NCBI RefSeq assembly: GCF_018205345.1
Contig: NZ_JADRHM010000003.1
Location: 1 to 64,000, forward strand
Origin: Fusobacterium sp. DD2
GTDB taxonomy: Bacteria; Fusobacteriota; Fusobacteriia; Fusobacteriales; Fusobacteriaceae
Direction: 5' to 3'
DNA length: 64,000 bases
Positions 30 to 16,011 of the stretch are shown in pieces. The position numbers were made by a program, and so were the translations under genes. The notes below the pieces were generated by a model, which was not told the origin of the DNA, did no database searches, and saw nothing but the letters and a program-made list of their open reading frames with translations. The first letter of the stretch is position 1. Every line of letters starts with the position of its first letter.

Positions 30-1013
30 TTATGCCTTTACCTTTTTTATCTCTTCTATCAAAAGAGGAATTACTTTCATTGCATCTCCAACGATTCCTA
101 CGTCTGCAATGTCAAATATAGCTGCATCCTCATCTTTGTTGATAGCCACAATATATCCTGATCCTATCATTCCTGATACATGTTGTGTAGCTCCAGAAAT
201 TCCACACGCAATATATAATTTTGGTGCTACAATTTTTCCTGACTGTCCAACTTGGTGAGAACGAGGTACCCATTCATCTTCTATTGCTGGTCTTGTAGCT
301 CCTACAACACCACCACATACATCAGCTAGCTCCTGAACTAATTGGAAGTTTTCTTTAGAACCCATTCCACGTCCACCAGAAACGATTACATCTGCTTCTT
401 CTAGATTAACAGTTTCTGCAACTTCCTTAATAATATCAATTATTTTACTGAAAACAGCTTCTTCTGGAACTGTGATTTTTTCTTCTATAACTTCTCCATT
501 TCTTCCTGCAACAATATTTTTGCTGAAAGAACCTGGACGAACTGTCATAATAACTGGAGTTGTATTTATTATAATATCATTTAATACAGTTCCTCCATAT
601 ACTGGGCAAGTTATTACTAATTTATCTCCGTCTCTTCTAACATTTAAAACATCTACCGCACTTGATGTTTCAAATTCTTTAGCAATTGCTGGAGTTAAAT
701 CTTTAGCGATTAAAGTAGCCCCTGCCATAAATAAACTTGGTTTGTATTTTTTTACAAGTTCTTTTAGGATTCCAGCATATTTTTCAAATAAGTAAGAATC
801 TTCCTCTACTATGATAACTTTGTCTGCACCTGCTTCAATAATAGTCTTTATCCCGTTATCGTCTTTTTTTCCTATTACAACTGCAAGAACCTCTTCATTT
901 GTCTCATCAGCTAATGTTCTGGCCTCAGCAAGAGATTCTAAAGCAACACTTACAGGCGCTCCATCTTTTGTTTCCACATAAACCATTATATTTTTTGTAT
1001 CTGTAAGCTTCAT
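30..1013 (-). CDS. etfA: Electron transfer flavoprotein, alpha subunit
   Basis: This is the FAD-carrying large subunit of the EtfAB heterodimer, which passes electrons between flavin dehydrogenases and their partners in the cytoplasm. The 327-residue length is normal. The C-terminal FAD domain is intact: VSGGRGMGS (211-219), SHQVGQSGK (252-260) followed by ACGISGATQH (269-278), and NKDEDAAIFDIADVGIVGD (292-310). It is the last gene of a five-gene leftward operon (permease, FAD-linked lactate dehydrogenase, acyl-CoA dehydrogenase, etfB, etfA), 17 bases after etfB. The neighbours suggest it links lactate oxidation to acyl-CoA reduction. Whether this EtfAB bifurcates electrons (NADH/ferredoxin) or is a simple carrier cannot be decided by eye. 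Confidence 0.96.
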   Translation of the reverse strand: MKLTDTKNIMVYVETKDGAPVSVALESLAEARTLADETNEEVLAVVIGKKDDNGIKTIIEAGADKVIIVEEDSYLFEKYAGILKELVKKYKPSLFMAGATLIAKDLTPAIAKEFETSSAVDVLNVRRDGDKLVITCPVYGGTVLNDIIINTTPVIMTVRPGSFSKNIVAGRNGEVIEEKITVPEEAVFSKIIDIIKEVAETVNLEEADVIVSGGRGMGSKENFQLVQELADVCGGVVGATRPAIEDEWVPRSHQVGQSGKIVAPKLYIACGISGATQHVSGMIGSGYIVAINKDEDAAIFDIADVGIVGDAMKVIPLLIEEIKKVKA

Positions 1014-1030
1014 TTTCTATAACCTCCTAA

Positions 1031-1807
1031 TTATAATACCTTGGCCTCAACCATCATGTTCATAGCTTGAGCAACTGCTTCTTCAACAGTTTCAGCTTTA
1101 ATTTTTACACCTGCTGAACGTTTTACAGGTTCGTATACTTTTATAACTTCAACTTCACTTGCAGCTTCTGAAACAGTATCTAGTTGGTCAATAGGTTTCT
1201 TTCTAGCTTGCATTTTAGTTTTAATAGTTGGGTATCTTGGTTCATAATTAGGTTTTTGAACTGTTACTACACATGGAAGTGTTGTTTCTATTACAGTGTA
1301 ACCTTCATCTTTTTCTTGTTTAATGTCTATTAGATTGTCTTTTATTTCAACATCTACAACATTTGTAACTACAGGAAGTTTTAATTCATCAGCAAGCATA
1401 AGTCCAACTTGGCTTGTTGCATAATCTGTAGCTTCTTTTCCACAGAATACCATGTCGAATTTAACTCCTAGTTTCCCTTCTATTTCTTCTTTTGCTTTTA
1501 CTAATGTTTTTGCAACTCCTACTGCATCAAGAGCTTCTGCATTGTCATCTTTAACGAAAAATGCCTTGTCTCCTCCAACTGCTAAACAGTTTTTAAGAGA
1601 ATTTTTTACACTTTCATCACCTATTGAGACAACTACAATTTCTCCTCCAACTTTTTCTTTTAGACGAGTAGCCATTTCTAAAGCATATGTATCAAAAGCA
1701 TTAACTACTTGAGTTACCTCTTCTAATGCTGGTTTTCCAGTTTCTGAATTAAGAGATATCTCTACAGAATCATCTGGAACTTGTTTTATACAAACTAATA
1801 TTTCCAT
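1031..1807 (-). CDS. etfB: Electron transfer flavoprotein, beta subunit
   Basis: This is the small subunit of EtfAB, which binds AMP or, in bifurcating forms, a second FAD and NAD(H). The N-terminus shows the family signature CIKQVPD (residues 6-12) and a central VVNAFDTYALEMA segment. I chose the ATG whose product begins MEILVCIKQ, because the AAGGAG lies 10 bases before it and only 1 base before an in-frame GTG nine bases further upstream. The ribosome site abuts the stop of the acyl-CoA dehydrogenase gene, so the two are probably translationally coupled. The protein pairs with the EtfA encoded next. Confidence 0.95.
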   Translation of the reverse strand: MEILVCIKQVPDDSVEISLNSETGKPALEEVTQVVNAFDTYALEMATRLKEKVGGEIVVVSIGDESVKNSLKNCLAVGGDKAFFVKDDNAEALDAVGVAKTLVKAKEEIEGKLGVKFDMVFCGKEATDYATSQVGLMLADELKLPVVTNVVDVEIKDNLIDIKQEKDEGYTVIETTLPCVVTVQKPNYEPRYPTIKTKMQARKKPIDQLDTVSEAASEVEVIKVYEPVKRSAGVKIKAETVEEAVAQAMNMMVEAKVL

Positions 1808-1825
1808 CTTTTGCACACTCCTTAA

Positions 1826-2962
1826 CTATCTTCCAATTGTATTATTTGCAATTACTATTCTTTGTACCTCATTTGTTCCTTCAAAGATTTGGAAAATTTT
1901 AGCGTCTCTTAGAAGTTTTTCAACTGGGTATTCACGGCTGTATCCATATCCTCCAAAGAATTGAATTGCTTCTGATGCAACTTGCATTGCAATATCAGAT
2001 GCATAGCATTTAGCTATTGCTGATTCTTTACTGTGTGGTAATCCCATATCCATTTTTGTTAAAGCATGAGCTACCATTTGTCTAGCTGTTTCTGTTTTTA
2101 TTTCCATATCTGCAATTTTGAATTGCATTGCTTGGTTTTTAATGATTGGTTTTCCAAATTGAATTCTTTCTTTACCATAAGCGATTGCTTCATTGATACC
2201 TCTTTGAGCTATACCAGTAGCAACACATCCCATCCATGTACGAGCTTGGTCAAGAGTTTTCATAGCTATTGAGAATCCTTTTCCTTCTGCTCCTATAAGG
2301 TTTTTAGCTGGGATACGAACATCTTCAAGAACTACGTCACAAGTATTTGATGTACGGATACCCATTTTATTTTCTTCATTTCCTGTGCTTAATCCTGGAG
2401 TTCCAGCTTCAATGAAGAACATTGAAATTCCTTTTACCCCTTTAGATTTGTCTGTCATTGCTGTTACACAGTAGAAAGAAGCGATTGCTCCATTTGTTAT
2501 AAAGCATTTTCTTCCGTTTAATACATATTCGTCTCCATCTTTAACTGCTACAGTTTTTCCTGCTCCAGCATCTGATCCAGCTCCTGGTTCAGTTAAACAG
2601 AAAGCTCCAAATCCTCCTTCAAGAATAAGGTCACATGCACGTTTCTTTTGTTCTTCTGTACCTGCGATTAATACTGGTTTCATTCCAAGTCCACTTGCTG
2701 AAATTGTTGTTGCAAATCCTGCATCTGCAATAGCCATTTCTTCTATTAAAGCTGCTACGTCAACTCTGCTTAGTCCAGGTCCTCCAAATTCTTCTGGTAC
2801 TTCTAGAGCTTGATATCCTTGTTCAATAGCCTTATCATATATTTCTTTTGGCCATTCTCCTGTTACGTCGTATTCTTTACATTGTTCTTTTACTTCTTTC
2901 TCACAGAAAGTTCTTACGTCTTGTAATAAGTCTTTTGCTTCTTCTGATATTAAATATGCCAT
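1826..2962 (-). CDS. Acyl-CoA dehydrogenase, short-chain/butyryl-CoA type
   Basis: This flavoprotein interconverts a short-chain acyl-CoA and its 2-enoyl-CoA, exchanging electrons with EtfAB. Its 378 residues match the butyryl-CoA dehydrogenase (Bcd) family. The substrate/FAD motif TEPGAGSDAG lies at 124-133. The C-terminal motif FEGTNEVQR places a glutamate at 361, the usual catalytic base of short-chain enzymes. It sits between a FAD-linked lactate dehydrogenase gene and etfBA. That order suggests lactate electrons reduce an enoyl-CoA (crotonyl- or acryloyl-CoA) through Etf, as described biochemically for Megasphaera elsdenii D-lactate dehydrogenase, Etf and butyryl-CoA dehydrogenase. The exact substrate is an inference. 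Confidence 0.93.
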   Translation of the reverse strand: MAYLISEEAKDLLQDVRTFCEKEVKEQCKEYDVTGEWPKEIYDKAIEQGYQALEVPEEFGGPGLSRVDVAALIEEMAIADAGFATTISASGLGMKPVLIAGTEEQKKRACDLILEGGFGAFCLTEPGAGSDAGAGKTVAVKDGDEYVLNGRKCFITNGAIASFYCVTAMTDKSKGVKGISMFFIEAGTPGLSTGNEENKMGIRTSNTCDVVLEDVRIPAKNLIGAEGKGFSIAMKTLDQARTWMGCVATGIAQRGINEAIAYGKERIQFGKPIIKNQAMQFKIADMEIKTETARQMVAHALTKMDMGLPHSKESAIAKCYASDIAMQVASEAIQFFGGYGYSREYPVEKLLRDAKIFQIFEGTNEVQRIVIANNTIGR

Positions 2963-3013
2963 TTTGATACCCCCTAATAATTTTTTATCTTTAACTAATT
3001 TAATTAGTTATTT

Positions 3014-4441
3014 CTATAGTTTATAACAAACTTTTCCTGGATTTAGTATCATTTTAGGGTCGAATACCTCTTTAATACCTCTCATGATACGCATGTTTGC
3101 TTCTCCAGCAAAATCTGCTAAATATTCCATTTTTCCATGTCCTATTCCATGTTCTCCTGAAATAAGTCCTCCACATTCAGCTGCTTTTTTATAGATAACT
3201 TTCATAAAGTCAGCAACCTGTTTTTTAAATTCAGTTTCATCCATATCATTTGCACAAGCATAGATATGTAAGTTACCGTCTCCAGCATGTCCGAAACTTT
3301 TTATTTTGAAATCATAGTTACTTTCTAAAGATTTTACAAATGTTAAATATGTTGCAATTTGATTTACTGGAACAACTACGTCACATTCATCAAGTAATTT
3401 TGTTTCAGCTTCTATTGCTTCTAAGAAGCTTCCTCTAGCTGCCCAGGCATCTTTTTTCTTAGCAGGTGTATCAGCTACAAGTACGTCAATTGCTCCTTGT
3501 TCAAATACAACTTCTGATGCTTCTTCAGTTATTGCTTCTAATTCTTCCATATCATTTCCATCAAATGTTACAAGTAGGTATGCTCCTATTTCTGTTCCTT
3601 CTAACTCTTGAGGGAATACGCTTTTACCTAAGTATCTTTCTGATGCAAGTACTATCTCTTTCTCCATAAATTCAAGAGCTTGAGGTTGTAAATGTGCCAT
3701 AAAGAATTTTGGTACAGTTGCTATACAATCTTCTAAGTTTTCATATGGAATGATTAAGCTTATTGTTTCTTTTGGTGCTGGTATAACTTTTAAAGTTAAC
3801 TCAGTTATAATTCCTAATGTTCCTTCTGAACCTACCATTAAGTTGATTAAACTATAACCAGTAGATGTTTTAGAAACAGTTGCTCCCATTTTTACAATTT
3901 CTCCTGTTGGAAGAACTACAGTCATTGCACGTACATAATCTCTTGTACATCCATATTTTACTGCTCTCATTCCACCAGCGTTTGTTGATACATTTCCACC
4001 AACAGTTGCAAATTTTTCTCCTGGATCTGGTGGATATAATAATCCTTGTCTTTGAGCATCTTCAGCAAGGTCATTTAATAGTACTCCTGCTTGAACTTTT
4101 ACAACAAAATTCTCTTTGTCATAACCTAATATTTTGTTCATTTTGCTCATATCTATCATTACACCGCCGTATATTGCAACAGCAGCACCTGTCAATCCTG
4201 TTCCTGCTCCTCTAGGGATAACTGGAATATTGTTTTCATAGCATATCTTAACTATTTTTGCTATATCTTCAGTTGTTGTAGCCTCTACAACTACATCTGG
4301 AGTTCCTTTACCATAGATTGGCATTTCATCATGAAAATAGTCTTCATTGATGTCTCCATTTACATGGACTTTTCCTGGAACGATTTGTTTAAATTGTTCC
4401 ACAAGTTCAGGTGTTATTTTATTGTACTTTAACTCCTGCAT
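3014..4441 (-). CDS. FAD-linked lactate/glycolate dehydrogenase (GlcD/LctD family)
   Basis: This FAD_binding_4 (PCMH-type) 2-hydroxyacid dehydrogenase probably oxidises D-lactate to pyruvate. Motifs seen are the FAD loop PRGAGTGLTG near residue 76, a HAGDGNLH active-site motif near 390, and HGIGHGKMEYL near 435; the length of 475 is usual. I chose the second ATG (product starting MQELKYNK) because AAGGAGG lies 8 bases before it but only 2 before the first ATG. It lies directly after the lactate permease gene and before acyl-CoA dehydrogenase and etfBA. LctD of the Acetobacterium lactate dehydrogenase/Etf complex is a relative with the same partners. D- versus L-specificity is inferred from the family. 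Confidence 0.92.
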   Translation of the reverse strand: MQELKYNKITPELVEQFKQIVPGKVHVNGDINEDYFHDEMPIYGKGTPDVVVEATTTEDIAKIVKICYENNIPVIPRGAGTGLTGAAVAIYGGVMIDMSKMNKILGYDKENFVVKVQAGVLLNDLAEDAQRQGLLYPPDPGEKFATVGGNVSTNAGGMRAVKYGCTRDYVRAMTVVLPTGEIVKMGATVSKTSTGYSLINLMVGSEGTLGIITELTLKVIPAPKETISLIIPYENLEDCIATVPKFFMAHLQPQALEFMEKEIVLASERYLGKSVFPQELEGTEIGAYLLVTFDGNDMEELEAITEEASEVVFEQGAIDVLVADTPAKKKDAWAARGSFLEAIEAETKLLDECDVVVPVNQIATYLTFVKSLESNYDFKIKSFGHAGDGNLHIYACANDMDETEFKKQVADFMKVIYKKAAECGGLISGEHGIGHGKMEYLADFAGEANMRIMRGIKEVFDPKMILNPGKVCYKL

Positions 4442-4509
4442 CTTCATTTCCTCCTTAAAGTTACTTTGCCTTATTTCTATCTAATAAAAAATGTTAGATA
4501 CACTTTTGT

Positions 4510-6042
4510 TTACGCAGCTCCAAGATATGTTACTACCCCGAAAACTACAATGAAAATTATGAAATATTTGATTACTCCTACAAGTATTTTACTTTCCTTA
4601 CCAACAATTCCTGCTGCTGCAGTTGCTACTGCAATACTTTGTGGAGATATTATTTTTCCTGCTACACTTCCTGTAGTATTTGCTGCAACCATCCAAGCTG
4701 AATTCATTCCAAGTACTTCTGCTGTACTTAATTGAAGTTTAGAGAATAGAACACTGCTTGAAGTAGAACTTCCTGTTACAAATGTTCCAATTGAACCAAT
4801 AAGTGGTGCAACTAGTGGATAATAGCTTCCTGTTATACCAACTATAAAATCTGCTATTGTTTGAGTCATTCCACTGTATCCCATTACTTTTGCTGTTGCT
4901 AATACTGCCATTATTGTTATTACTGTTTTAAACATCTGTTTTACTGTTTTTACAAATACTGATATAATCTCTCCGATTGGACATTTTTGAATTAGTCCTC
5001 CTACTACTGCTGCTTCAATTATCAAGACTCCAGGAGTAGCAAGCCATACAAATGTATAAGGTTTTGCTCCTACACCTGTGTAGATTTGAATACTTGATTT
5101 AATACTTGATAATGGATCATGTATAACTGGTATTATTGATGATGTCACTATTAAGAAAACCAGTACTAATATAAATGGACTCCATGCAACAAGACATTGA
5201 TGTGTTGTTATATCATCTGTCTTTTCAATTTCAAGTTCAAAATCCTTATTAGATGTTTTAAATATTTTTGTTGCAAGAACTATAAGTCCCATACAAACAA
5301 CAGAACCCATAATTGCTGGAAGCTCAGCTCCCATAAATTTAGCTATTGTATATTCAGGAATTAAGAAACCAAGTCCTGCAATAAGAGTCATAAGCCAAAC
5401 TCCTTTAAACATGCTAAGTCCTTTGTATCCCTCATATTTTCCAACCATGTAAACTACTAAGAATGGAACAAGCATTATCATTATTGCCTGTTGTGAAACT
5501 ATGTCAGCTGCCAAGATACTTGAATCAAGTCCTGCAACATTAGCTGCTGTTACAGTAGGTATCCCTATTGAACCAAATGCAACTGGTGTAGTATTAGCTA
5601 CCAGACAAACCATAGCTGCAAATACTGGATCAAATCCCAATCCAACTAAAATTCCTGCTGGAATAGCAACTGCAGTTCCAAACCCTGCCATTCCTTCCAT
5701 AAATCCACCAAATCCCCAAGCAATGATAAGTACCAAAATCCTCTTATCTGTTGATACTGATGCCAACATCTTTTTTATTACTTCCATATTTTTAGTGTAT
5801 ACCACTAAGTTGTAAGTAAAGACTGCTGCTATAATTACAAGGCAAATAGGCCAAATAGCCATTACAAATCCTTCTAACGCACCTGTTGCCACATCCATAA
5901 CATTTTGCTGCCATATAACCAATGCTTCCACTATGGTAATAACCATAGCTATTGTGCAGGCTTTATACCCAGACATTTTTAATCCGCTAAGTGCAATCAT
6001 TAAAAACACTATAGGTAAAATAGCCAATAAAAATATAACCAT
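4510..6042 (-). CDS. lctP: L-lactate permease (LctP family)
   Basis: This polytopic inner-membrane permease imports lactate, probably with protons. About 510 residues form many hydrophobic segments, and the family-typical glycine-rich stretch GFGGFMEGMAGFGTAVAIP is present in the first third. I chose the ATG whose product begins MVIFLLAI because the AAGGGG lies about 8 bases before it. An in-frame GTG nine bases upstream overlaps the ribosome site. It is the first gene of the lactate/Etf operon and follows a strong promoter carrying two copies of the TGGTACTACCA operator. Confidence 0.94.
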   Translation of the reverse strand: MVIFLLAILPIVFLMIALSGLKMSGYKACTIAMVITIVEALVIWQQNVMDVATGALEGFVMAIWPICLVIIAAVFTYNLVVYTKNMEVIKKMLASVSTDKRILVLIIAWGFGGFMEGMAGFGTAVAIPAGILVGLGFDPVFAAMVCLVANTTPVAFGSIGIPTVTAANVAGLDSSILAADIVSQQAIMIMLVPFLVVYMVGKYEGYKGLSMFKGVWLMTLIAGLGFLIPEYTIAKFMGAELPAIMGSVVCMGLIVLATKIFKTSNKDFELEIEKTDDITTHQCLVAWSPFILVLVFLIVTSSIIPVIHDPLSSIKSSIQIYTGVGAKPYTFVWLATPGVLIIEAAVVGGLIQKCPIGEIISVFVKTVKQMFKTVITIMAVLATAKVMGYSGMTQTIADFIVGITGSYYPLVAPLIGSIGTFVTGSSTSSSVLFSKLQLSTAEVLGMNSAWMVAANTTGSVAGKIISPQSIAVATAAAGIVGKESKILVGVIKYFIIFIVVFGVVTYLGAA

Positions 6043-6110
6043 TGATGTCACCCCTTATAAAAATTACAGTTTCTTGTTACTCTAATTTTCTAGACAAAGA
6101 CAGTCTTCAG

Positions 6111-6121
6111 TGGTACTACCA
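6111..6121. promoter_or_regulatory. Palindromic operator O1 of the lactate regulon
   Basis: The 11-mer TGGTACTACCA is a TGGT-N3-ACCA palindrome in the lctP leader. The pattern fits FadR/LldR-type GntR operators. It is identical to the copies at 6182 and, on the other strand, at 9025. Its centre is 71 bp from the promoter-proximal copy, so looping between two dimers is possible. Binding by the regulator encoded at 16.1-16.8 kb is inferred. Confidence 0.8.
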
Positions 6122-6181
6122 GTTATTTTGAATAAAAAAAATAAAGTCTTTTTTTATTTTTATAATTCCCCCACTTTTCAT

Positions 6182-6192
6182 TGGTACTACCA
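6182..6192. promoter_or_regulatory. Palindromic operator O2 overlapping the lctP transcription start
   Basis: This is a second exact TGGTACTACCA. It lies 13 bases downstream of the lctP -10 box, so a bound repressor would block initiation or clearance. It is probably the main operator of the lactate permease/Etf operon. Confidence 0.85.
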
Positions 6193-6205: not shown

Positions 6206-6234
6206 ATTATACAACTAGTTTTTGTAAATGTCTA
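6206..6234 (-). promoter_or_regulatory. Sigma-70-type promoter of the lctP operon
   Basis: Read on the minus strand, TAGACA and a perfect TATAAT are separated by exactly 17 bases. The start site would fall near 6199, just before operator O2. The rest of this roughly 350-base gap between lctP and the ArsA-like genes holds the two operators, the ArsA terminator and AT-rich sequence with no gene. Confidence 0.85.
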
Positions 6235-6339: not shown

Positions 6340-6363
6340 TGCTGTTTTTTCCAAAAAACAGCA
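6340..6363 (-). terminator. Intrinsic terminator after the ArsA-like gene pair
   Basis: A perfect 11-bp inverted repeat, TGCTGTTTTTT / AAAAAACAGCA, with a 2-base centre is followed on the minus strand by a run of T. It lies about 35 bases beyond the stop of the second ArsA-like gene. Confidence 0.75.
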
Positions 6364-6398: not shown

Positions 6399-7565
6399 TT
6401 AATAATCCATTTTTATTTTTAGTTTACCATTATCATAAACATACTCTGTAATATCTCTTTTCTTCAATTTTTCTGGAAGATGAAATCTTCTTTCTTCATT
6501 GAGCCATCTTATTACAATGTCTTCTCTATCTTTTAAAACAGTGATTTCATCACTATTTTCTACAAATGGAAGATCCATTATCAAAGTTCTTGTTCCGTAA
6601 TTATCCTCAATAACAGCTCCCTCACTTTTACAAAATATATCTAAAGGATTGCTGTTTTTATAAAGGAGTGAAGCTATACTCTCTAAACTATTTTTCCCTA
6701 AAACCTCATCCTGCTGAAGTTCTAGTTTAAATATTTTTTCTTTTGCAAAACTTTTCTCTGCAAGTTCTATACTCTCCTTTTGATACTGGTTCCATCCACT
6801 AAAATATCCATCTAATGCTTTTTCAGGATAGATTTTATTTATATATACTGCATCTGGGTTAAACCCATATAATTTGAGCCATGTATAATTTCTTCTAGCC
6901 TCTTCGAGAACTATATGCTCAGGAGTAGTAACAATTCTGATACTTGTACTATCTGGATCTTTTAAAATCTCATATAGGTTTGTAAGCCTATCCACTAAAG
7001 CTCCAAATTCATCAAAAACAATCTCTTTCGGTTTAGGAACAGAGGTTTTTTTAGATATAAAATTTCCAAAAATAGAATTTATGTTTTTTACCATTGGAAT
7101 TACTGCATCTGCTATCATTTTTATCTTCTCTGCATATGTTAACATAGAAAGTGACTGTCCAGTTGGAGCACAGTCAACAACTAATACATCAAACTGACTG
7201 TTTTCACAAATTTCTAAAATCTTAAGTAGTGCAAAGACCTCATCAAGTCCTGGAAACATAAGAGTTTCATCAGCTTCAATTCCATAGTTAGCCTTATTTT
7301 TTATAATCTGTTTCAAATAGTCATGCAGATTTGCCCATACTTTTTTTCCCTCTTCAACTGTATCTATCTCCATAGCATAAAAGTTGTTAGAAATTTCCTG
7401 AGGTTTTGAGGATACCTTGCACCCTAGAGAATCCCCTAAACTATGGGCCTGGTCACTGCTTATAAGTAAAACTTTTTTCCCACTTTTTGCAATGTGAGTT
7501 GCTGTTGCTGCTGCAAGAGTAGTTTTTCCTACTCCACCTTTTCCAGTATAAAATAAAATTCTCAC
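6399..7565 (-). CDS. ArsA/Get3-family ATPase, second of a tandem pair
   Basis: This soluble P-loop ATPase belongs to the ArsA/Get3 family. Motifs are the Walker A GKGGVGKTT (8-16), switch I SSDQAHSLGD (about 36-45) and switch II DCAPTGQSLS (about 130). The last ~70 residues (from about LIMDLPFVE) look like the beta-rich Hsp20-like tail found on many bacterial ArsA proteins. The start is a GTG sharing one base with the stop of the preceding paralogue (TAGTG), so the two are translationally coupled. No arsenite pump, ArsD or ArsR is nearby, so an arsenic role is not supported. Client-protein or cofactor handling is possible but unproven. Confidence 0.88.
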   Translation of the reverse strand: MRILFYTGKGGVGKTTLAAATATHIAKSGKKVLLISSDQAHSLGDSLGCKVSSKPQEISNNFYAMEIDTVEEGKKVWANLHDYLKQIIKNKANYGIEADETLMFPGLDEVFALLKILEICENSQFDVLVVDCAPTGQSLSMLTYAEKIKMIADAVIPMVKNINSIFGNFISKKTSVPKPKEIVFDEFGALVDRLTNLYEILKDPDSTSIRIVTTPEHIVLEEARRNYTWLKLYGFNPDAVYINKIYPEKALDGYFSGWNQYQKESIELAEKSFAKEKIFKLELQQDEVLGKNSLESIASLLYKNSNPLDIFCKSEGAVIEDNYGTRTLIMDLPFVENSDEITVLKDREDIVIRWLNEERRFHLPEKLKKRDITEYVYDNGKLKIKMDY

Positions 7566-8755
7566 TACTCTTCCCCTCCCATATTTTTAGCTGTTTCAAA
7601 ATAAACTGATAGCCATTGATTTTCAAGCTCCAATTTATTTATTGAGCTCCCTCTTAAAACATTTGGTAAAGGGATACATCTGTTGAAATTATTTACTTTG
7701 ATGACTAAATCCATCTCGTGGATATTGACCTTTATATCCTCAAGTTTTGCCTGAGGCAAATACAAAGTAAAAATATAACCTTTTTCCCAGGTAGAGTATT
7801 TTTCCTCTGGAAAAGCTTTTTTAGGTGGTAACTCTTTTGCAATTGAAAAAACTCTCTCAGAAAGTTTTTCTGCAGCATCTATTCCCAATATCTCATTTGG
7901 ATACCATGGTATCTTAGCTATTGGTATATTTACAAAGACCTCTTCCAGCTCTTTTATATATTTTGACTGAATCTCTCTCCAGTTTTTTATAAATGGATTT
8001 GTTATTTTACCACTTAAAACTCTATTAATAAAAACTGTATCTACATTGTACTGATACAGGTTCATATACATAAAATTTCTTTTTGTCTCTTCAACAACCA
8101 TTTTTTCCGGTATGCAAACCAGTTTAATAGAGCATATATCCTTATCTCTTAGTAAGTATTGCAGCTCAATAAGTTTCTTATGTATTTTTTCTATGGTATC
8201 CATGCTTTTATAGCTTGGTAAAGTGACTCCATATTTCATCTTAGATATAGGTTTTAATACACGCACTATGGTCTTTCCTACTGGAAAGAATTTTTCCATA
8301 TACCATGCCAGCAGTTCTGGAATCTTTAAAAATGCAAGTGTTTCCCCAGTAGGTGCACAGTCAACTAAAATATAATCATACTCTCCACTGTCATAGAATT
8401 CTTTTATCTTTAACATACAGAAAAGATTCCCAAAACCAGGAATTGCAAAATTGTTATTGAGATTAGTAAGCTCCATACTACATCCACCTGCTAAATTCTC
8501 AATATTCTCTTTTATTTTTGGAAAATATTCATTTCTTAAAATATTTGGATCCAATTCTATCAGATCCAGATTCTCTTTTATATTTGTGATCTTATGTCCC
8601 ACCTTTGTTTGAAATATATCTCCTAAATTATGAGCCATATCTGTACTTACAAGAAGTGTCTTTTTTTCCTCTTTTGAAAAACCAATTCCATGAGCAGTAG
8701 CTATACTTGATTTTCCAACTCCACCTTTTCCTGTAAAAATAATTATTTTTGTCAT
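7565..8755 (-). CDS. ArsA/Get3-family ATPase, first of a tandem pair
   Basis: This is a 396-residue paralogue of the next gene. It has Walker A GKGGVGKSS (9-17), switch I DMAHNLGD (39-46) and switch II DCAPTGETL (132-140). The final ~75 residues (from about YIFTLYLPQAKLED) fit an Hsp20-like beta domain. Two different half-size proteins suggest a heterodimer, whereas classical ArsA is one fused protein with two ATPase halves. The genes lie between two lactate-regulated operons, but the sequence shows no operator copy close to their start. Function is unknown. A six-codon leader ORF with a strong ribosome site precedes this gene. Confidence 0.88.
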   Translation of the reverse strand: MTKIIIFTGKGGVGKSSIATAHGIGFSKEEKKTLLVSTDMAHNLGDIFQTKVGHKITNIKENLDLIELDPNILRNEYFPKIKENIENLAGGCSMELTNLNNNFAIPGFGNLFCMLKIKEFYDSGEYDYILVDCAPTGETLAFLKIPELLAWYMEKFFPVGKTIVRVLKPISKMKYGVTLPSYKSMDTIEKIHKKLIELQYLLRDKDICSIKLVCIPEKMVVEETKRNFMYMNLYQYNVDTVFINRVLSGKITNPFIKNWREIQSKYIKELEEVFVNIPIAKIPWYPNEILGIDAAEKLSERVFSIAKELPPKKAFPEEKYSTWEKGYIFTLYLPQAKLEDIKVNIHEMDLVIKVNNFNRCIPLPNVLRGSSINKLELENQWLSVYFETAKNMGGEE

Positions 8756-8976: not shown

Positions 8977-9005
8977 TTGACAACTGTCCCCCATTGTTAT
9001 ATTAT
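8977..9005 (+). promoter_or_regulatory. Promoter of the lut-men-fix operon
   Basis: TTGACA and TATTAT are separated by 17 bases, giving a start near 9012, just upstream of the TGGTAGTACCA operator. The rest of this roughly 300-base divergent region is AT-rich and shows no gene apart from the short ArsA leader ORF. Confidence 0.82.
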
Positions 9006-9024: not shown

Positions 9025-9035
9025 TGGTAGTACCA
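9025..9035. promoter_or_regulatory. Palindromic operator O3 at the lut-men-fix promoter
   Basis: TGGTAGTACCA is the exact reverse complement of the two operators before lctP. It lies about 20 bases downstream of the -10 box and 26 bases before the lutC start. The identity of all three 11-mers ties the two operons into one regulon. Confidence 0.85.
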
Positions 9036-9061
9036 CTATGAAAAAAGAAAGGAGTTTAAAA

Positions 9062-9613
9062 ATGAGTATTGAGAAAGAAAAACTATATGGGGATTTTAAG
9101 AAAAACTTAGAAGCTGTAAATGGAAGCTGTATCATTACTTCTAAAGCAAATTTAGGAAAAGCTATCGCAGCAGTGTTTACAGAAGAACAAATTGATTCTA
9201 CTTGTATGTTGGAATCTCCTATGTTGAAAGATGCAAAAGTTGTTTCTGCCCTTGAAGATGCAGGAATTACTGTACATTTGGATCACATTCGTCTTCATGC
9301 TGAAACTGATAAAGGAGGAATAACTGAAGCAGACCATGGTATTGCAGAACTTGGTACCATTGTTCAAGAAAGTGATGATGTTGATGGTAGAATGATTGCC
9401 ACAATGTCTGAAACTTATATTGGAATTATAAAAGGTTCTAAAATAGTACCTACTTATGATGATATGTTTGATATATTAAGTGCAATGCCTGAAATACCTA
9501 ATTTCGTAGGATTTGTAACAGGACCTAGCCGTACTGCTGACATTGAGTGTGTTGGAACTGTTGGAGTACATGGACCTATAAAAGTTTATATCATCATTGT
9601 TGAAGATGAATAG
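9062..9613 (+). CDS. lutC: LutC-like LUD-domain protein
   Basis: This is the small LUD-domain subunit of the LutABC/LldEFG L-lactate dehydrogenase complex. The family C-terminal signature is clear: GPSRTADIE followed by GVHGP. I chose the ATG at residue M of MSIEKEK because AGGAG sits 7 bases before it. An in-frame ATG 24 bases upstream lacks a ribosome site and lies against the operator. Length from this start is 183, slightly short for LutC but typical of the minimal LUD form. It is the first gene of an operon continuing with the LutB-LutA fusion, quinone-synthesis genes and fixCX. The role in lactate oxidation is inferred from family and context. Confidence 0.88.
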   Translation: MSIEKEKLYGDFKKNLEAVNGSCIITSKANLGKAIAAVFTEEQIDSTCMLESPMLKDAKVVSALEDAGITVHLDHIRLHAETDKGGITEADHGIAELGTIVQESDDVDGRMIATMSETYIGIIKGSKIVPTYDDMFDILSAMPEIPNFVGFVTGPSRTADIECVGTVGVHGPIKVYIIIVEDE

Positions 9614-9652: not shown

Positions 9653-11809
9653 ATGTCAAAGGAAGATTTAAAAAAAGAGATACGTTGCGCATTGGATAAC
9701 GCAACACTTGGAAAAACTCTTGGAAATTTTTGTAAATCATATCCAGATAGAAGAAAAAAATCATACGAAGGTATGGATTTTGAAAATACCCGTAAAAAAA
9801 TTGCAGAAGTTAAATCTTATGCAGCTGACCACATTGATGAAATGATTGAATCTTTCACTAAAAATTGTGAAGGAAGAGGAGGTCATGTTTTCCATGCTAA
9901 AAGTACCGATGAAGCAATGGAATGGATTAGAAACCTTGTAAAAGAAAAAGGTGTTAAATCTATTGTAAAATCTAAATCAATGGCATCTGAAGAGATCCAT
10001 ATGAACCAGATACTTGGTGGAGATGGAGTAAATGTACAGGAAACTGACCTTGGAGAATTTATTATTGCTCTTGAAGGAAATACTCCAGTACATATGGTTA
10101 TGCCTGCTCTTCACTTAAATAAAGAACAAGTTGCAGAACTATTTACTGATTATACTAAAACTAAAAATGAACCAATTATCTCTGAAGAGGTAAAAACTGC
10201 CCGTAGAGTTATGAGAGATAAATTCACTCATGCAGATATGGCTGTATCAGGTGCCAACGTTGCAGTTGCTGATACAGGTACTGTATTTACAATGACAAAT
10301 GAAGGAAATGGACGTATGGTAGGAACTCTTCCTCCAATCCATCTATATGTTTTTGGTATTGAGAAATTTGTTAAATCTTTCTCTGATGCAAGACATATTT
10401 TTAAAGTACTTCCTCGTAATGGTACAGCTCAAAGAATCACTTCTTACCTTTCTATGTACACAGGAGCTACTGAAGTTACAATAAATAAAGATACTGACGA
10501 AAAAGCTAAAAAAGAATTCTACTGTGTTATCCTGGATGATCCTGGACGTCGTGAAATTTTAGCAGAACCAGATTTCCGTCAAATCTTTGATTGTATCAGA
10601 TGTGGTGCTTGTCTTGACGTTTGCCCAGCATTTGCACTAGTTGGAGGACACGTTTACGGTTCTAAAGTATATACTGGAGGAATCGGAACTATGCTTACTC
10701 ACTTCCTAGTTTCTGAAGAACGTGCATCAGAAATTCAAAATATCTGTCTTCAATGTGGAAGATGTAACGAAGTTTGTGGAGGAAAATTAAAAATCTCTGA
10801 CATGATTATGAAACTTAGAGAAAAACAGATGAAAGAAAATCCAGATGCAGTTAAGAAATTTGCATTAGATGCTGTAACAGACAGAAAACTTTTCCACTCA
10901 ATGTTACGTATAGCATCAGTTGCTCAAGGAATATTTACTAAAGGACAACCTATGATAAGACATCTTCCTATGTTCCTATCTGGACTTACTAAAGGAAGAA
11001 GTTTCCCAGCTATTGCTCAAGTACCTTTAAGAGATATTTTCCACACTATACCTCAAGATGTAAAAAATCCTAAAGGAACAATAGCTCTATTTGCAGGATG
11101 TCTACTTGATTTCGTTTATGTTGACCTTGCAAAAGCTGTAATAGCTAACTTAAACTCTATTGGATATAAAGTTGAAATGCCTCTAGGACAAGCTTGTTGC
11201 GGATGTCCAGCTACAAGTATGGGAGACACTGAAAATGCTATTAAAGAAGCTGAAATAAATATTGAAGGAATGGAAGCTGAAAAATACGACTATGTTGTAA
11301 CTGCATGTCCTTCATGTACTCACCAACTACGTCTATATCCTACATTCTTTGAAGAGGGAACAGAAATGCACAAAAGAGCAAAAGAACTTGCTGACAAAAC
11401 TTTTGACTTCTCTAAACTTTTCTATGACCTTGGTGGTGTAGCAGATGTAGGAGATGGAAAACCTGTAAAAGTTACTTATCACGACTCATGTCACCTAAAG
11501 AGAACTTTAGGAGTAAGTAAGGAACAAAGAGAACTTTTAAAACATACAAAAGGTGTTGAATTCGTTGAAATGAACGATTGCGACAACTGTTGTGGATTTG
11601 GTGGAGCATACAGTGTTCTTTATCCTGAAATTTCAGCAGAAATTTTAGAAAATAAAATTAAGAATATTAAAGACTCTGGTGCGGAAGTTGTAGCTTTAGA
11701 CTGTCCAGGATGTCTAATGCAAATCAAAGGTGGATTAGATGCAAGAGACAGTAAAATCAAAGTTAAACATACAGCACAAATTATTGCAGAGAAAAGGGGA
11801 TTAATTTAG
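9653..11809 (+). CDS. Fused LutB-LutA iron-sulfur L-lactate dehydrogenase subunit
   Basis: This 718-residue protein joins two normally separate Lut subunits. The N-terminal ~290 residues are a LUD domain. Two 4Fe-4S motifs follow: C314, C317, C320, C324 (CIRCGACLDVCP) and C365, C368, C371, C375. The C-terminal third is a LutA-like pair of cysteine-rich CCG domains: FAGC near 483, CCGCP near 514, CPSC near 552, HDSCH near 610, CDNCCGFGG near 643 and CPGC near 684. It should oxidise L-lactate to pyruvate and hand electrons to a membrane or quinone acceptor. The genes that follow make and use a quinone, which supports that route. Confidence 0.9.
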   Translation: MSKEDLKKEIRCALDNATLGKTLGNFCKSYPDRRKKSYEGMDFENTRKKIAEVKSYAADHIDEMIESFTKNCEGRGGHVFHAKSTDEAMEWIRNLVKEKGVKSIVKSKSMASEEIHMNQILGGDGVNVQETDLGEFIIALEGNTPVHMVMPALHLNKEQVAELFTDYTKTKNEPIISEEVKTARRVMRDKFTHADMAVSGANVAVADTGTVFTMTNEGNGRMVGTLPPIHLYVFGIEKFVKSFSDARHIFKVLPRNGTAQRITSYLSMYTGATEVTINKDTDEKAKKEFYCVILDDPGRREILAEPDFRQIFDCIRCGACLDVCPAFALVGGHVYGSKVYTGGIGTMLTHFLVSEERASEIQNICLQCGRCNEVCGGKLKISDMIMKLREKQMKENPDAVKKFALDAVTDRKLFHSMLRIASVAQGIFTKGQPMIRHLPMFLSGLTKGRSFPAIAQVPLRDIFHTIPQDVKNPKGTIALFAGCLLDFVYVDLAKAVIANLNSIGYKVEMPLGQACCGCPATSMGDTENAIKEAEINIEGMEAEKYDYVVTACPSCTHQLRLYPTFFEEGTEMHKRAKELADKTFDFSKLFYDLGGVADVGDGKPVKVTYHDSCHLKRTLGVSKEQRELLKHTKGVEFVEMNDCDNCCGFGGAYSVLYPEISAEILENKIKNIKDSGAEVVALDCPGCLMQIKGGLDARDSKIKVKHTAQIIAEKRGLI

Positions 11810-11812
11810 TTT

Positions 11813-12784
11813 ATGGAATCAATATGTAACAAATGGATAAAACAAGTCAAACACTATATGCAGGTTATTGGTGCTCACTCAATGCAAGGAACTGAGGTAG
11901 GAAATATCTTAGATGAATCTCTCAATCTTTCAGGAAAAATGATTAGAGCTAAGCTATTACTACTTTGTGCTTTATTAGGACCAAACTGGGAAGAAAAAAG
12001 AGAAACTCTATGCAAACTGGCAGCTATGGTTGAACTTACACATCTTGCATCTCTAATTCATGATGATATTGTAGATGATTCACCATACAGAAGAGGACAG
12101 GAATCTATACAAAAAAAATATGGAAGAAATGCCGCTGTTTATGCTGGAGATTTTATTATGGCCAGAATTTATTACTATGAAGCAGTGGAGCATTTAAATG
12201 ACTCAGCAGCTCTTTTATCCAAAGCAGTTGAAGCAATGTGTGCAGGGGAGATTGGACAGGGAATATGCCGTTATATGGAAGATATCACTCCTGAAAGATA
12301 CTTCAAAAATATCGAGGGAAAAACTGCAGCACTATTTGAAACTGCCTGTTACATAGGTGCAAAAGAAGCTGGTTGTACAGATGAGCTTATTGAAAGATTG
12401 GCTCTTTTCGGAAAAAATATAGGTTTTATGTTTCAAATAAAAGATGATATCTTGGATTTTACCTCAACCTTTCACTCAACAGGTAAAGAGATACATCAAG
12501 ACTTTCAAAATGGAATATATACTTTTCCAGTGATTATGACAATGAAAAATCCACAAGGAAAAGATATATTATTGCCAATTATGAAGGCTAATAAAACTAG
12601 AGACCTATCTCAAGAAGAGATTTCAAAAGCTGTAAATTGTGTAATGGACTTTGGTGGAATCAAAGAAAGTTATAAAAAAATACAGGAACTTTCTGAAATC
12701 AATAAAAATTTAATAAAAGATTTGGATAACAACAGTGAGATAACTGCTCTATTTTCTCTACTTATGAAAGCATTGGAGGAATAA
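11813..12784 (+). CDS. Polyprenyl diphosphate synthase (quinone side-chain type)
   Basis: This trans-isoprenyl diphosphate synthase makes the long prenyl chain of a quinone. Both aspartate motifs are intact: LIHDDIVDDSPYRRG (first, DDxxD) and KDDILDFTS (second, DDxxD). The 323-residue length matches heptaprenyl/octaprenyl synthases. It starts 3 bases after the LutB-LutA stop. Position directly before the MenA-like gene indicates its product feeds quinone assembly rather than general isoprenoid synthesis. Chain length cannot be read with certainty. Confidence 0.9.
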   Translation: MESICNKWIKQVKHYMQVIGAHSMQGTEVGNILDESLNLSGKMIRAKLLLLCALLGPNWEEKRETLCKLAAMVELTHLASLIHDDIVDDSPYRRGQESIQKKYGRNAAVYAGDFIMARIYYYEAVEHLNDSAALLSKAVEAMCAGEIGQGICRYMEDITPERYFKNIEGKTAALFETACYIGAKEAGCTDELIERLALFGKNIGFMFQIKDDILDFTSTFHSTGKEIHQDFQNGIYTFPVIMTMKNPQGKDILLPIMKANKTRDLSQEEISKAVNCVMDFGGIKESYKKIQELSEINKNLIKDLDNNSEITALFSLLMKALEE

Positions 12785-12786
12785 AA

Positions 12787-13710
12787 ATGAGCTCTTATAC
12801 AAAACTTACGCCAAAATTGGCTCTTCAACTGGCAGCCCCACATACCTGGGTTGCATCAGCTATCCCTGCGATTTTTGGAATAATTTTCTGCAAATTGTAT
12901 GGATACAATCTTACCTCTATACAGAGCCTATTTTTACTGATAGCCTGTATCCTGATGCAATCATCAGTTAATACTTTCAACGATTATGTTGATTTTATAA
13001 AGGGAACTGACAGTGTAGAAGACAATGTAGAAGTAAGTGATGCAGTTCTTATTTATAATCCAGTAAATCCAAAACATGTACTTATTCTTGGAATAATATA
13101 TCTTATACTTGGTTGTGGCTTAGGAAGTATAGCATGTATTGGAAAAGGAGCTCTTCCTTTAATGATTGGGATAATTGGTGCCATAATAGTAATCTTGTAT
13201 TCTGGTGGACCAGTTGCTATATCATACCTTCCAATAGGAGAGTTTGTATCTGGATTTGTAATGGGAATACTTATTCCTTTGGGAATAGGTGCAGCAGCTG
13301 ATGGAAAATTTCATAGTGAATTTTTTCTCTATGCTCTGCCTCTTTTTTTAGGAATAGGGCTCATAATGATGACAAATAATGGATGTGATATTGAAAAAGA
13401 TAGAGAAGCAGGTCGCTTTACCTTAGCTGTAGCTCTTGGAAGAGAATCTATTAAAAAATTATATTACATATCAATTATTACGTGGTTATCTCTTATAGTT
13501 GTCCTGTCATTTATACAATTTAAAATTTTCGGTGCAATTATAATTGTTTTTCTTCTTTTGGGATTTAAACCATTTTTATTCCTTTTAAACTCCAGGTTAC
13601 TCCCACAAGATAGAATTAAACAGATGAAAATGATTGTTTTAGCCAATATAGTTGGAAATGGAAGCTATATACTGGTAATACTTATAAATTTATGCTTAGG
13701 TGATTTTTAA
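12787..13710 (+). CDS. menA: UbiA-family prenyltransferase, MenA-like
   Basis: This polytopic membrane enzyme attaches the prenyl chain to an aromatic acceptor, most likely 1,4-dihydroxy-2-naphthoate (DHNA), giving demethylmenaquinone. The first Mg-diphosphate motif is NTFNDYVDFIKG (NDxxD) and the second is NGCDIEKDREAGR. About eight hydrophobic segments span the 307 residues. It is flanked by a polyprenyl diphosphate synthase gene and a MenG/UbiE gene, which makes MenA the best reading. A different UbiA substrate is possible because no other men genes are in the window. Confidence 0.85.
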   Translation: MSSYTKLTPKLALQLAAPHTWVASAIPAIFGIIFCKLYGYNLTSIQSLFLLIACILMQSSVNTFNDYVDFIKGTDSVEDNVEVSDAVLIYNPVNPKHVLILGIIYLILGCGLGSIACIGKGALPLMIGIIGAIIVILYSGGPVAISYLPIGEFVSGFVMGILIPLGIGAAADGKFHSEFFLYALPLFLGIGLIMMTNNGCDIEKDREAGRFTLAVALGRESIKKLYYISIITWLSLIVVLSFIQFKIFGAIIIVFLLLGFKPFLFLLNSRLLPQDRIKQMKMIVLANIVGNGSYILVILINLCLGDF

Positions 13711-13711
13711 T

Positions 13712-14410
13712 ATGAATAAAAAGTTAAAATCAAAATATGTATATGAAGTTTTTCAAAATATTTCCACTAAATATGACAGTGCTAACAATCGCATCAGTTT
13801 GGGGTTACAGAAACAATGGAAAAATTTTCTTGTAAAACAGATTTCAGATACAATTCCTGCAGAAGGTTCACTTATGGATATCTGCTGTGGTACTGGTGAT
13901 ATTACTATCTGGTGCGCCCAAAAAAGAAAAGATATCAAAGTTACTGGTATGGATTTTTCTCCTGCAATGCTTAAAGTAGCTAAGGAGAAAAGTGGTCAAA
14001 TGGATAATATCTGCTGGATAGAAGGAGATGCACTCTCACTACCATTTCCAGACAATAGTTTTTCAGCAGCATGTATCTCATTTGGTCTTAGAAATACTTC
14101 AGATTATGAAAAAGTAATTGCAGAAATGAAAAGAGTTATAAAAGAAAATGGCACTATCTACTGCCTTGATTCTTTTGTACCAGATAATAAACTTATTCAA
14201 CCTTTTTATAAAATTTATTTTAAATACTTTATGCCACTCCTGGGGGGTGGAAAGACAAATTACAAAGAATATCTTTGGTTATATAAATCAACACATGATT
14301 TCCTTCGAAAAGATGAACTGATTTCTCTTTATGAAAAAGTCGGTTTGAAAGATATCAAATTCAAAAGCAAAATGTTTGGAGCATGTGTACTAGTTCAAGG
14401 AAAAAAGTAG
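13712..14410 (+). CDS. menG: MenG/UbiE-type quinone C-methyltransferase
   Basis: This SAM-dependent methyltransferase of the UbiE/COQ5 family methylates demethylmenaquinone to menaquinone. Motif I reads DICCGTGD, followed by GMDFSPAML, then GDALSLPFPDNSF and the family motif FGLRNTSDY. I prefer the ATG giving MNKKLKSKY, 1 base after the menA stop, over an upstream in-frame GTG inside menA; AGGTGA lies a suitable distance before it. Around 232 residues is normal. It is the last biosynthetic gene before fixC. Confidence 0.88.
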   Translation: MNKKLKSKYVYEVFQNISTKYDSANNRISLGLQKQWKNFLVKQISDTIPAEGSLMDICCGTGDITIWCAQKRKDIKVTGMDFSPAMLKVAKEKSGQMDNICWIEGDALSLPFPDNSFSAACISFGLRNTSDYEKVIAEMKRVIKENGTIYCLDSFVPDNKLIQPFYKIYFKYFMPLLGGGKTNYKEYLWLYKSTHDFLRKDELISLYEKVGLKDIKFKSKMFGACVLVQGKK

Positions 14411-14431
14411 AAAATTATAGGAGGAAAAGAA

Positions 14432-15724
14432 ATGAGCGACGAAAAATTTGATGCCATAATCGTAGGTGGCGGTTTAGCAGGTTGTTCAGCAGCTATTGTT
14501 CTTGCTAATGCAGGACTTGCAGTTCTCTTAGTTGAAAGAGGAGATTTCTGTGGAGCAAAAAATATGACTGGTGGACGACTATATGGTCATAGTCTTGAAA
14601 AAATTATTCCTGATTTTGCAAAAGAAGCTCCAATTGAAAGAAGAATTACTAAAGAAAAAGTTTCTCTAATGAGTAAAGATGGTTCTCTTGATATTGGATT
14701 TGGTTCAAAAAAATTAAGTTCTACAAAAGAAAATGCTTCTTATACAGTTTTAAGAGCCCAATTTGACCAATGGTTAGCTCAAAAAGCTGAAGAAGCTGGA
14801 GCTGAAATAATTCCAGGAATCCTTGTTGACGAACTTATCGTTGAAGATGGAAAAGTAGTTGGAATATATGCAACTGGAGAAGAACTTTACGCTGATGTAG
14901 TAGTTCTTGCAGATGGTGTAAACTCTCTACTTGCTCAAAGTTTAGGAATGAAAAAAGAATTAGAACCTCATCAAGTTGCAGTTGGTGCAAAAGAGGTTAT
15001 CAGATTAGGTGAAGATGTAATAAATCAACGTTTTGGAATAAGAAATGATGAAGGTGTATCTTGGCTTTCTTGTGGAGATCCTACAATAGGAGGATTTGGT
15101 GGAGGACTTCTATATACTAATAAAGACAGTGTATCTATTGGTATAGTTGCTACTCTAAGTGATATTGACCACAGTGGTCTTTCTATCAATCAACTTCTTG
15201 ATAGATTTAAAGAACATCCATCAATAGCTCCATATATTGAAGGTGGAACTCCAATTGAATACTCTGGACACTTAGTTCCTGAAGAAGGAATCCACATGGT
15301 TCCTGAATTATATAGAGATGGAGTACTTGTAACTGGAGACGCTGCAGGTTTCTGTATCAACCTTGGATTTACAGTAAGAGGAATGGATTTTGCCATTGAA
15401 TCTGGACGTTTAGCTGCAGAAACAATTATTAAAGCTCATGAAATTGGAGACTTTAGTGCAGAAACTCTATCTGCTTATGAAAAAGCTCTTCGTCATAGCT
15501 TCGTATTTGAAGATATGGAACAATATAAAGGATTCCCTACTCTATTAGGACAAAGAGAGATATTTGAAGATTTACCAGAAATGGCTAATGATATTGCAGC
15601 AAAAGCATTTACAGTAGATGGAAACCCACAAAACTTACTAATGTATATAATTCAATCTATTGCACAACATACAACTGCTGCCAAACTTTCTAATTTTGTG
15701 ACTAAAGTATTGGAGGCGTTTTAA
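14432..15724 (+). CDS. fixC: FixC-type electron-transfer flavoprotein:quinone oxidoreductase
   Basis: This FAD-dependent, membrane-associated oxidoreductase of the EtfQO/FixC family moves electrons between EtfAB and a quinone. The N-terminal dinucleotide motif is VGGGLAGCSAA, followed by the typical GAKNMTGGRLYG; a second FAD motif GDAAGFCINLGFTVRGMD lies near 310-330. Length 430 matches FixC. With the FixX ferredoxin encoded next it forms the two-subunit equivalent of EtfQO. The matching EtfAB could be the one in the operator-linked divergent operon. Direction of electron flow (into or out of quinone) is not shown by sequence. Confidence 0.92.
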   Translation: MSDEKFDAIIVGGGLAGCSAAIVLANAGLAVLLVERGDFCGAKNMTGGRLYGHSLEKIIPDFAKEAPIERRITKEKVSLMSKDGSLDIGFGSKKLSSTKENASYTVLRAQFDQWLAQKAEEAGAEIIPGILVDELIVEDGKVVGIYATGEELYADVVVLADGVNSLLAQSLGMKKELEPHQVAVGAKEVIRLGEDVINQRFGIRNDEGVSWLSCGDPTIGGFGGGLLYTNKDSVSIGIVATLSDIDHSGLSINQLLDRFKEHPSIAPYIEGGTPIEYSGHLVPEEGIHMVPELYRDGVLVTGDAAGFCINLGFTVRGMDFAIESGRLAAETIIKAHEIGDFSAETLSAYEKALRHSFVFEDMEQYKGFPTLLGQREIFEDLPEMANDIAAKAFTVDGNPQNLLMYIIQSIAQHTTAAKLSNFVTKVLEAF

Positions 15725-15726
15725 CT

Positions 15727-16011
15727 ATGAAAAAAATGACAATAGAAGATAAACTAGGATTAAATATATTTCACGTTGACGAAGAAAATTCTCATATTGA
15801 AATAGATAAAGATTACGCAGATGAAAAAGAGATTAAAAAACTTCTTATGGCATGTCCTGCTGAGTGTTACAAATACACTGATGGAAAATTAAGTTTCAGC
15901 CATTTAGGATGCTTAGAATGTGGAACTTGCAGAGTTTTATCTCTTGGAAAAGTTGTTAAAAAATGGAAATATCCTATTGGAGAAGTTGGAGTAACTTACA
16001 GACAAGGATAA
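15727..16011 (+). CDS. fixX: FixX ferredoxin-like protein
   Basis: This small 4Fe-4S protein is the partner of FixC. The four expected cluster cysteines are visible: one within CPAECYK and three in GCLECGTC. The family ending W-x-YP-x-G-x-x-GVTYRQG is present, and 94 residues is normal. It begins 2 bases after the fixC stop, ends the lut-men-fix operon, and is followed by a strong terminator. Confidence 0.93.
   Translation: MKKMTIEDKLGLNIFHVDEENSHIEIDKDYADEKEIKKLLMACPAECYKYTDGKLSFSHLGCLECGTCRVLSLGKVVKKWKYPIGEVGVTYRQG

Follow-up and report, generated by a model that had tools for sequence, protein, structure and literature searches.

Where could a fermentative anaerobe send the electrons of lactate if it carries genes for finishing a quinone next to genes for lactate oxidation? 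The question is raised by a 64,000-nucleotide stretch of Fusobacterium sp. DD2 (contig NZ_JADRHM010000003.1, positions 1 to 64,000; hereafter the window). Operon A encodes a lactate permease, a FAD-linked lactate dehydrogenase, an acyl-CoA dehydrogenase and the electron transfer flavoprotein (ETF) EtfBA. Operon B encodes an iron-sulfur lactate dehydrogenase, three enzymes for a prenylated quinone and FixCX. A preliminary description, made from the sequence, proposed that these two divergent operons may carry electrons from L-lactate through menaquinone, FixCX and EtfAB to an enoyl-CoA, with a parallel D-lactate branch. The window genes are all intact open reading frames whose families agree with profile matches (Table 1). 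The gene set is not due to chance, since 15 Firmicutes genomes and two other Fusobacteria have these genes in the same order, and the described gene content stands. The operons do lie on opposite strands, but they are not directly divergent, since two minus-strand genes for ArsA/Get3-type ATPases, which the preliminary description lacked and which are part of the conserved unit, intervene. We infer a wiring, to which we assign a probability of slightly under one half, in which L-lactate electrons would pass from an LdhGH-type enzyme via quinol and FixCX to a canonical EtfAB and to AcdA with crotonyl-CoA.

A nine-gene cassette shared with Firmicutes

The conserved unit is a cassette of nine genes, encoding a LUD protein, LdhH, a polyprenyl synthase, UbiA, UbiE, FixC, FixX and the two ArsA/Get3-type ATPases. 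From LdhH through FixX the genes are tightly packed, with gaps of 3, 2, -11, 21 and 2 nt. When one genome per prokaryote species was searched with the window FixC as query, 17 loci were found. Fifteen of these are cassettes, all in Firmicutes (Eubacterium yurii, two Frisingicoccus, other Lachnospiraceae, Oscillospiraceae, an unclassified Clostridia metagenome-assembled genome (MAG), Sarcina sp. DSM 11001 and Anaerococcus degeneri), and the remaining two (L018 and L019) hold a distant FixC outside any cassette. Within contig limits, the 15 Firmicutes loci share the order LUD, LdhH, (HepT), UbiA, UbiE, FixC, FixX; L013 and L014 lack HepT. All of them except L012, and L017, whose contig begins inside fixC, also have at least the first gene of the ArsA pair alongside. 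Among 98 Fusobacteriota genomes, FixC occurs only in DD2 and in G037, a complete single-contig genome; ArsA-HSP20 proteins are confined to the same two, the other HSP20 matches being small proteins of 140-182 residues. A third Fusobacterium carrier, F. vincentii SB055, has the full cassette. Its record, NZ_CP084075.1 (L178), is labeled 'plasmid pSB055A' and is also in PLSDB, but at 2,108,235 bases and with ribosomal protein operons it is a chromosome filed as a plasmid. The class of genome G101 illustrates how sporadic the cassette is: that genome alone carries it among ~390 sampled, and of 391 relatives sampled there, one has an LdhH above the cut-off.

In our tree, the FixC proteins of the cassette group as a single clade (support 100/99), which neighbors E. 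coli FixC/YdiS and stands apart from FixABCX proteins; within it, a 99/99 group unites Fusobacteria and E. yurii. This grouping of sequences indicates horizontal spread, probably from a Firmicutes source and with exchange in the mouth. LdhH scores above the curated LdhGH cut-off and adjoins a small LUD subunit (PF02589), as expected of an LdhGH-type enzyme. Unlike in known LdhGH, these genes share one operon with FixCX and partial quinone synthesis, and are accompanied by the ArsA pair. No description of the cassette was found in the literature on FixCX, lactate and quinones, a survey that covered sources other than subscription journals.

The cassette adjoins a canonical D-lactate operon

Judged by gene order and diagnostic residues, operon A is the lct operon, biochemically characterized in F. 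nucleatum in 2025, where electrons from D-lactate pass from Ldh through a canonical ETF to Bcd and reduce crotonyl-CoA (PMC12630350). Both operons have the order GlcD-Acd-EtfB-EtfA; the window differs in having LctP in front and the cassette inserted between lctP and the GntR gene. The diagnostic EtfB residue is an invariant Gly123 in bifurcating ETFs and Phe130 in F. nucleatum (PMC12630350). The aligned window residue is Tyr132, and the same position is Phe in G037 and F. vincentii, Tyr in E. yurii and Lachnospiraceae L007, and Cys in Frisingicoccus. Two of three further EtfB copies in the DD2 genome (contigs C36 and C110) have Gly. BcdFN, with Phe360 and Ile247, is not reducible by butyryl-CoA (PMC12630350). 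AcdA shares Phe360 and has Val247, likewise nonpolar, so flow toward butyryl-CoA should be favored; the Bcd on C36 has Tyr and Gln at positions 360 and 247. The D-lactate/Etf/acyl-CoA branch of the preliminary description is thus backed by these EtfB and AcdA signatures and by its counterpart in F. nucleatum (PMC12630350). On C30 (L051:6163-7863) there is a separate, divergent EtfBA pair with Asn at the bifurcation position; its neighbors encode an enoyl-CoA hydratase, an acyl-CoA dehydrogenase and a CoA-transferase-like protein. In G018 (L176:9796-11486), the same unusual pair adjoins the lct operon.

GlcD is 69-88% identical to nine other Fusobacteriota copies. This lct type (at least 69% identity) is found in 10 of the 98 Fusobacteriota genomes, eight of which lack the cassette. 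G023, of the same genus, shows EtfA, EtfB, Acd, GlcD and LctP followed directly by the GntR gene. The window has the cassette exactly between LctP and a GntR gene 57% identical to that of G023, and F. vincentii SB055 has the same layout, with lct and the ArsA pair on the minus strand and operon B on the plus strand. In G037, FixX and a GntR gene (46% identity) come first and the lct operon next, all on one strand. In all three carrier Fusobacteria, then, the cassette and a canonical lct operon are neighbors, in one of two arrangements (L050, L178). A third arrangement is found in L007, where the cassette is directly preceded by a canonical lct set that is unrelated (AcdA 43%). Gene-order comparison, a check named in the preliminary description, hence finds the two operons associated, brought together in three different ways. 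We propose that the cassette is a horizontally acquired L-lactate block placed on top of a native D-lactate operon. LrgAB genes lie by lct in G037 and F. vincentii SB055; the window contig begins at the EtfA end.

Quinone tail genes without ring synthesis

The preliminary description assigned three genes to a prenylated quinone, named as menaquinone. The tail genes are there. The name menaquinone is conjectural, because neither UbiA nor the polyprenyl synthase reaches an NCBIfam menaquinone equivalog cut-off (best scores 138 of 277 bits for UbiA, against MenA, and 168 of 457 bits for the synthase). Synthesis of the ring by the genome itself is contradicted. Across the 17 cassette genomes, MenB had no match over its cut-off, MenD had no match and no credible MqnA/D was found. 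The MenB matches, at 24-170 bits against a cut-off of 343, are other crotonases. The sole MqnA/D match (PF02621, 34 bits, in MAG G099; none in DD2) is probably a substrate-binding protein and was set aside. The absence of ring genes is credible because the DD2 genome is 99.95% complete.

As these genomes encode no MenB, MenD or credible futalosine enzyme, the cassette enzymes can probably only finish a quinone whose ring comes from outside, probably as a precursor such as 1,4-dihydroxy-2-naphthoic acid (DHNA) scavenged from neighboring bacteria. Gut bacteria with partial menaquinone pathways, for which DHNA is the likely carrier, are known (PMC5738691). They too combine MenA-like and UbiE-like genes with a lack of ring synthesis, which implies reliance on neighbors, but in the cassette such genes are packed with a lactate dehydrogenase and FixCX and move as a block. 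Since the genome does not make the ring, finding no quinone in defined medium would not speak against the proposed chain.

What FixCX may do

The proposed chain would start with import of lactate by LctP. By homology to the F. nucleatum biochemistry, D-lactate would pass electrons through the GlcD-type enzyme and EtfAB to AcdA, which would convert crotonyl-CoA to butyryl-CoA. The LUD/LdhH iron-sulfur enzyme would oxidize L-lactate and reduce a membrane naphthoquinone, which the polyprenyl synthase, UbiA and UbiE, whose genes are present, would finish from an imported ring precursor such as DHNA, presumably from neighbors since the genome lacks ring synthesis. FixCX would then move the quinol electrons to the same EtfAB and AcdA, so that both lactate isomers would drain into butyryl-CoA without NADH or ferredoxin.

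FixC exceeds the cut-off of its subfamily model and the 4Fe-4S cysteines of FixX are intact, as in an ETF:quinone oxidoreductase (ETF-QO); the quinone-binding domain PF21162 scores 27.1 bits, just short of its cut-off of 27.7. Several observations argue for the proposed role of FixCX. One is that the cassette adjoins canonical lct operons repeatedly. The nearest relatives of the window FixC are E. coli YdiS (51% identity) and FixC (48%), both in operons with ETF genes, YdiS also near the acyl-CoA dehydrogenase YdiO. The likeness would extend to electron exchange between quinone and ETF/acyl-CoA dehydrogenase in E. coli FixABCX/YdiQRST; the cassette differs in lacking FixAB, the nearby ETF being canonical and part of a lactate operon. 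To our knowledge, every characterized FixC/ETF-QO relative uses an ETF partner. When G037 was probed with E. coli CydA, FrdA, FrdB, NrfA and NrfD, none matched, and the sole probe match was to the MenF part, by a chorismate-binding relative; FixCX-ETF is therefore the only quinol outlet found among those probed.

Other observations weigh against coupling to EtfAB. The cassette itself holds no ETF gene at any locus. Canonical EtfAB occurs in only six of the 17 cassette genomes; eight have the Gly type only, and in three incomplete MAGs no ETF was found. Several strong near-universal markers are also missing from these MAGs, among the matches listed, and their lack of ETF was not used as proof against ETF coupling. 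Other possible quinol acceptors exist: fumarate reductase in G100, G107 and G112, NrfA in G110, and exported FMN/FAD reductases in DD2 itself, G102, G109 and G110. UbiA falls below every MenA cut-off, and F. vincentii SB055 and G037 have the cassette without an exact operator ahead of operon B (see below).

The alternative that fares best, though we consider it unlikely, places FixCX on the input side, with electrons passing from LUD-LdhH to FixX, FixC and quinone, the four proteins acting as a lactate:quinone oxidoreductase. In this alternative the quinol would feed any host acceptor (fumarate reductase, nitrite reductase or exported flavin reductases), and lct would be an independent D-lactate route that shares the regulator. 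FixCX does accompany LdhH at every locus whose contig reaches both genes, whatever the ETF type, its FixC clade is separate from FixABCX proteins, and other quinol acceptors are frequent in genomes without canonical ETF. Yet this would set it apart from its characterized relatives with their ETF partners, G037 showed no other acceptor among those probed, and all four isolate carriers (G098, G101, G109 and G110) have ETF.

Reverse flow, in which the quinone pool would receive the electrons of D-lactate through reduced EtfAB and those of L-lactate through LdhGH, is improbable. Its sink would be two DD2 proteins with FMN_bind and FAD_binding_2 domains (C1:26866 and C85:7389). Menaquinone has a potential of about -74 mV. 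The F. nucleatum ETF potentials, -70 and about -122 mV (PMC12630350), are near this value, so both directions are possible. G037, however, shares the gene set but gave no FrdA-like match, and no membrane component was identified that would connect quinol with the exported reductases. As an observation in its own right, the C1 and C85 proteins (L141:2342-4063; L142:2353-4182) look exported and fumarate/urocanate reductase-like, and may be anaerobic terminal reductases.

The preliminary description also considered a FixABCX-type bifurcating complex of EtfAB and FixCX, which would split NADH electrons between ferredoxin and quinone; despite the presence of FixC, FixX and Gly-type EtfBA pairs elsewhere in DD2, we regard this as very improbable and reject it for the window EtfAB, as the bulky Tyr132 should exclude the bifurcating flavin (PMC12630350), the Gly-type pairs adjoin their own acyl-CoA dehydrogenase genes and no FixAB lies within the cassette at any locus examined. 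Six cassette genomes (L058, L065, L075, L079, L082 and L086) have orphan EtfBA pairs, with the motif IDGxTGQIG or a variant and no adjoining acyl-CoA dehydrogenase; these are possible dedicated FixAB partners for FixCX, although not universal. Separately, the Klebsiella pneumoniae conjugative plasmid OW969790.1 (L179:6001-7571) carries FixC and FixX and, next to them, a YgcS transporter; the surrounding 13 kb have no annotated ETF gene.

A putative operator shared by the two operons

The window has three copies of the palindrome TGGTASTACCA against 0.01 expected (mean of shuffles), two ahead of lctP and one ahead of operon B. The nearest copy lies 14 nt (lct) and 20 nt (operon B) downstream of the respective -10 element. 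In G023, G037 and G038, too, lct has a pair of these palindromes ahead of it. The palindrome appears to be a GntR-family operator, native to the lct operon and gained ahead of operon B in the DD2 species, and both operons are probably under one GntR-type repressor. This putative operator, together with the promoter-like sites, favors the common control on which the preliminary description relied. The link is not universal among carriers, because F. vincentii has no exact copies.

The ArsA/Get3-type ATPase pair

Both ATPases match the ArsA/Get3 subfamily above its cut-off. The P-loop GKGGVGK[ST] is kept in every copy compared, and the CxxC zinc motif of eukaryotic Get3 is absent from the same copies. 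The closest PDB structures are of archaeal Get3 (3ug6, 3zq6), nearer than Get3d (3igf, 8elf). Get3d belongs to the same fold family and shares the HSP20/alpha-crystallin-like C-terminal domain (PMC10248533), whereas the cassette ATPases are always paired, lack CxxC and are closer to archaeal Get3. A role in arsenic resistance was rejected, as the two genes move together with the lactate/quinone block and have no ars gene as a neighbor. Our guess is a heterodimeric chaperone-like ATPase that helps to target or mature a part of the chain that is hydrophobic or bound to the membrane.

Organization of the locus

The features are collected in Table 1. The hairpin beyond ArsA2 is likely a terminator that sets the ArsA pair apart from lctP, and the inverted repeat between fixX and gntR is likely a bidirectional terminator. 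The LUD protein probably starts at the second ATG and not the first, because the ribosome site AAAGGAG falls between the two.

Table 1. Genes and sequence elements of the lct operon, the cassette and their surroundings (window coordinates)
Feature	Position	Strand	Basis
EtfA, FAD-binding alpha subunit, lct operon	30..1013	-	PF00766/PF01012
EtfB, canonical type, Tyr132 at A. fermentans Gly123 position	1031..1816	-	PF01012; alignment
Acyl-CoA dehydrogenase AcdA, BcdFN-like (Phe360, Val247, Glu361)	1826..2962	-	comparison with PMC12630350
GlcD-type FAD D-lactate dehydrogenase	3014..4447	-	PF02913/PF01565
Lactate permease LctP	4510..6051	-	TIGR00795 431.8 bits, cut-off 341
Operator-like palindrome TGGTACTACCA, second lct copy	6111..6121	.	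sequence
Operator-like palindrome TGGTACTACCA, lct copy nearest promoter	6182..6192	.	sequence
Promoter-like site, lct operon, TAGACA-17-TATAAT	6206..6234	-	11/12 matches
Hairpin GCTGTTTTTTCCAAAAAACAGC and T-run, within inverted repeat I1	6340..6362	-	sequence
ArsA2, Get3/ArsA-type ATPase, C-terminal HSP20-like domain	6399..7565	-	TIGR00345 213.8 bits, cut-off 135; PF17886
ArsA1, Get3/ArsA-type ATPase, C-terminal HSP20-like domain	7565..8755	-	TIGR00345 239.4 bits; PF17886
Promoter-like site, operon B, TTGACA-17-TATTAT	8977..9005	+	11/12 matches
Operator-like palindrome TGGTAGTACCA, ahead of operon B	9025..9035	.	sequence
LUD protein, LutC/LdhG-like small subunit	9038..9613, probable start 9062	+	PF02589; ribosome site
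LdhH, L-lactate dehydrogenase (quinone) large subunit; LUD, 4Fe-4S dicluster, CCG domains	9653..11809	+	NF045670 1021.6 bits, cut-off 800
Long-chain polyprenyl diphosphate synthase, HepT-like	11813..12784	+	PF00348; TIGR02748 below cut-off
UbiA prenyltransferase, MenA-like	12787..13710	+	PF01040; MenA models below cut-off
UbiE/MenG methyltransferase	13700..14410	+	TIGR01934 237.8 bits, cut-off 158
FixC (YdiS/FixC subfamily), FAD quinone oxidoreductase	14432..15724	+	NF007450 509 bits, cut-off 466; T. maritima FixC 7koe_C 5e-87
FixX, ferredoxin-like; CPxxC and CLECGTC motifs intact	15727..16011	+	NF011993; cysteines 43, 47, 62, 65, 68
Perfect 14-nt inverted repeat between convergent fixX/gntR	16051..16089	.	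sequence
GntR/FCD regulator, candidate lctR	16098..16775	-	PF00392/PF07729; homologues in G023, G037

Farther along the window, a glycerol operon (49256-54392) encodes a facilitator, a kinase and two FAD proteins resembling GlpO/GlpA-type oxidoreductases, whose electron acceptor might be quinone too. At 42186-42881, a DUF134-type regulator is fused to a NifX/dinitrogenase-iron-molybdenum cofactor-like domain with a His-rich tail, as read from the sequence.

Implications

We tentatively suggest, with less confidence than for the proposed chain, that the nine genes are a transferable, community-dependent respiratory cassette, by which fermenters without ring synthesis would finish a scavenged naphthoquinone, use it as a private wire between LdhGH and FixCX/ETF, and gain an ArsA/Get3-like pair with a new role in handling the quinone or a membrane redox protein. 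The unstudied ArsA/Get3 pair gains a well-defined genetic context. If the proposed chain is true, mouth and gut fermenters would have a route from L-lactate to butyrate that needs no lactate racemase. With the quinone ring coming from neighbors, DHNA cross-feeding would be a control point for lactate use.

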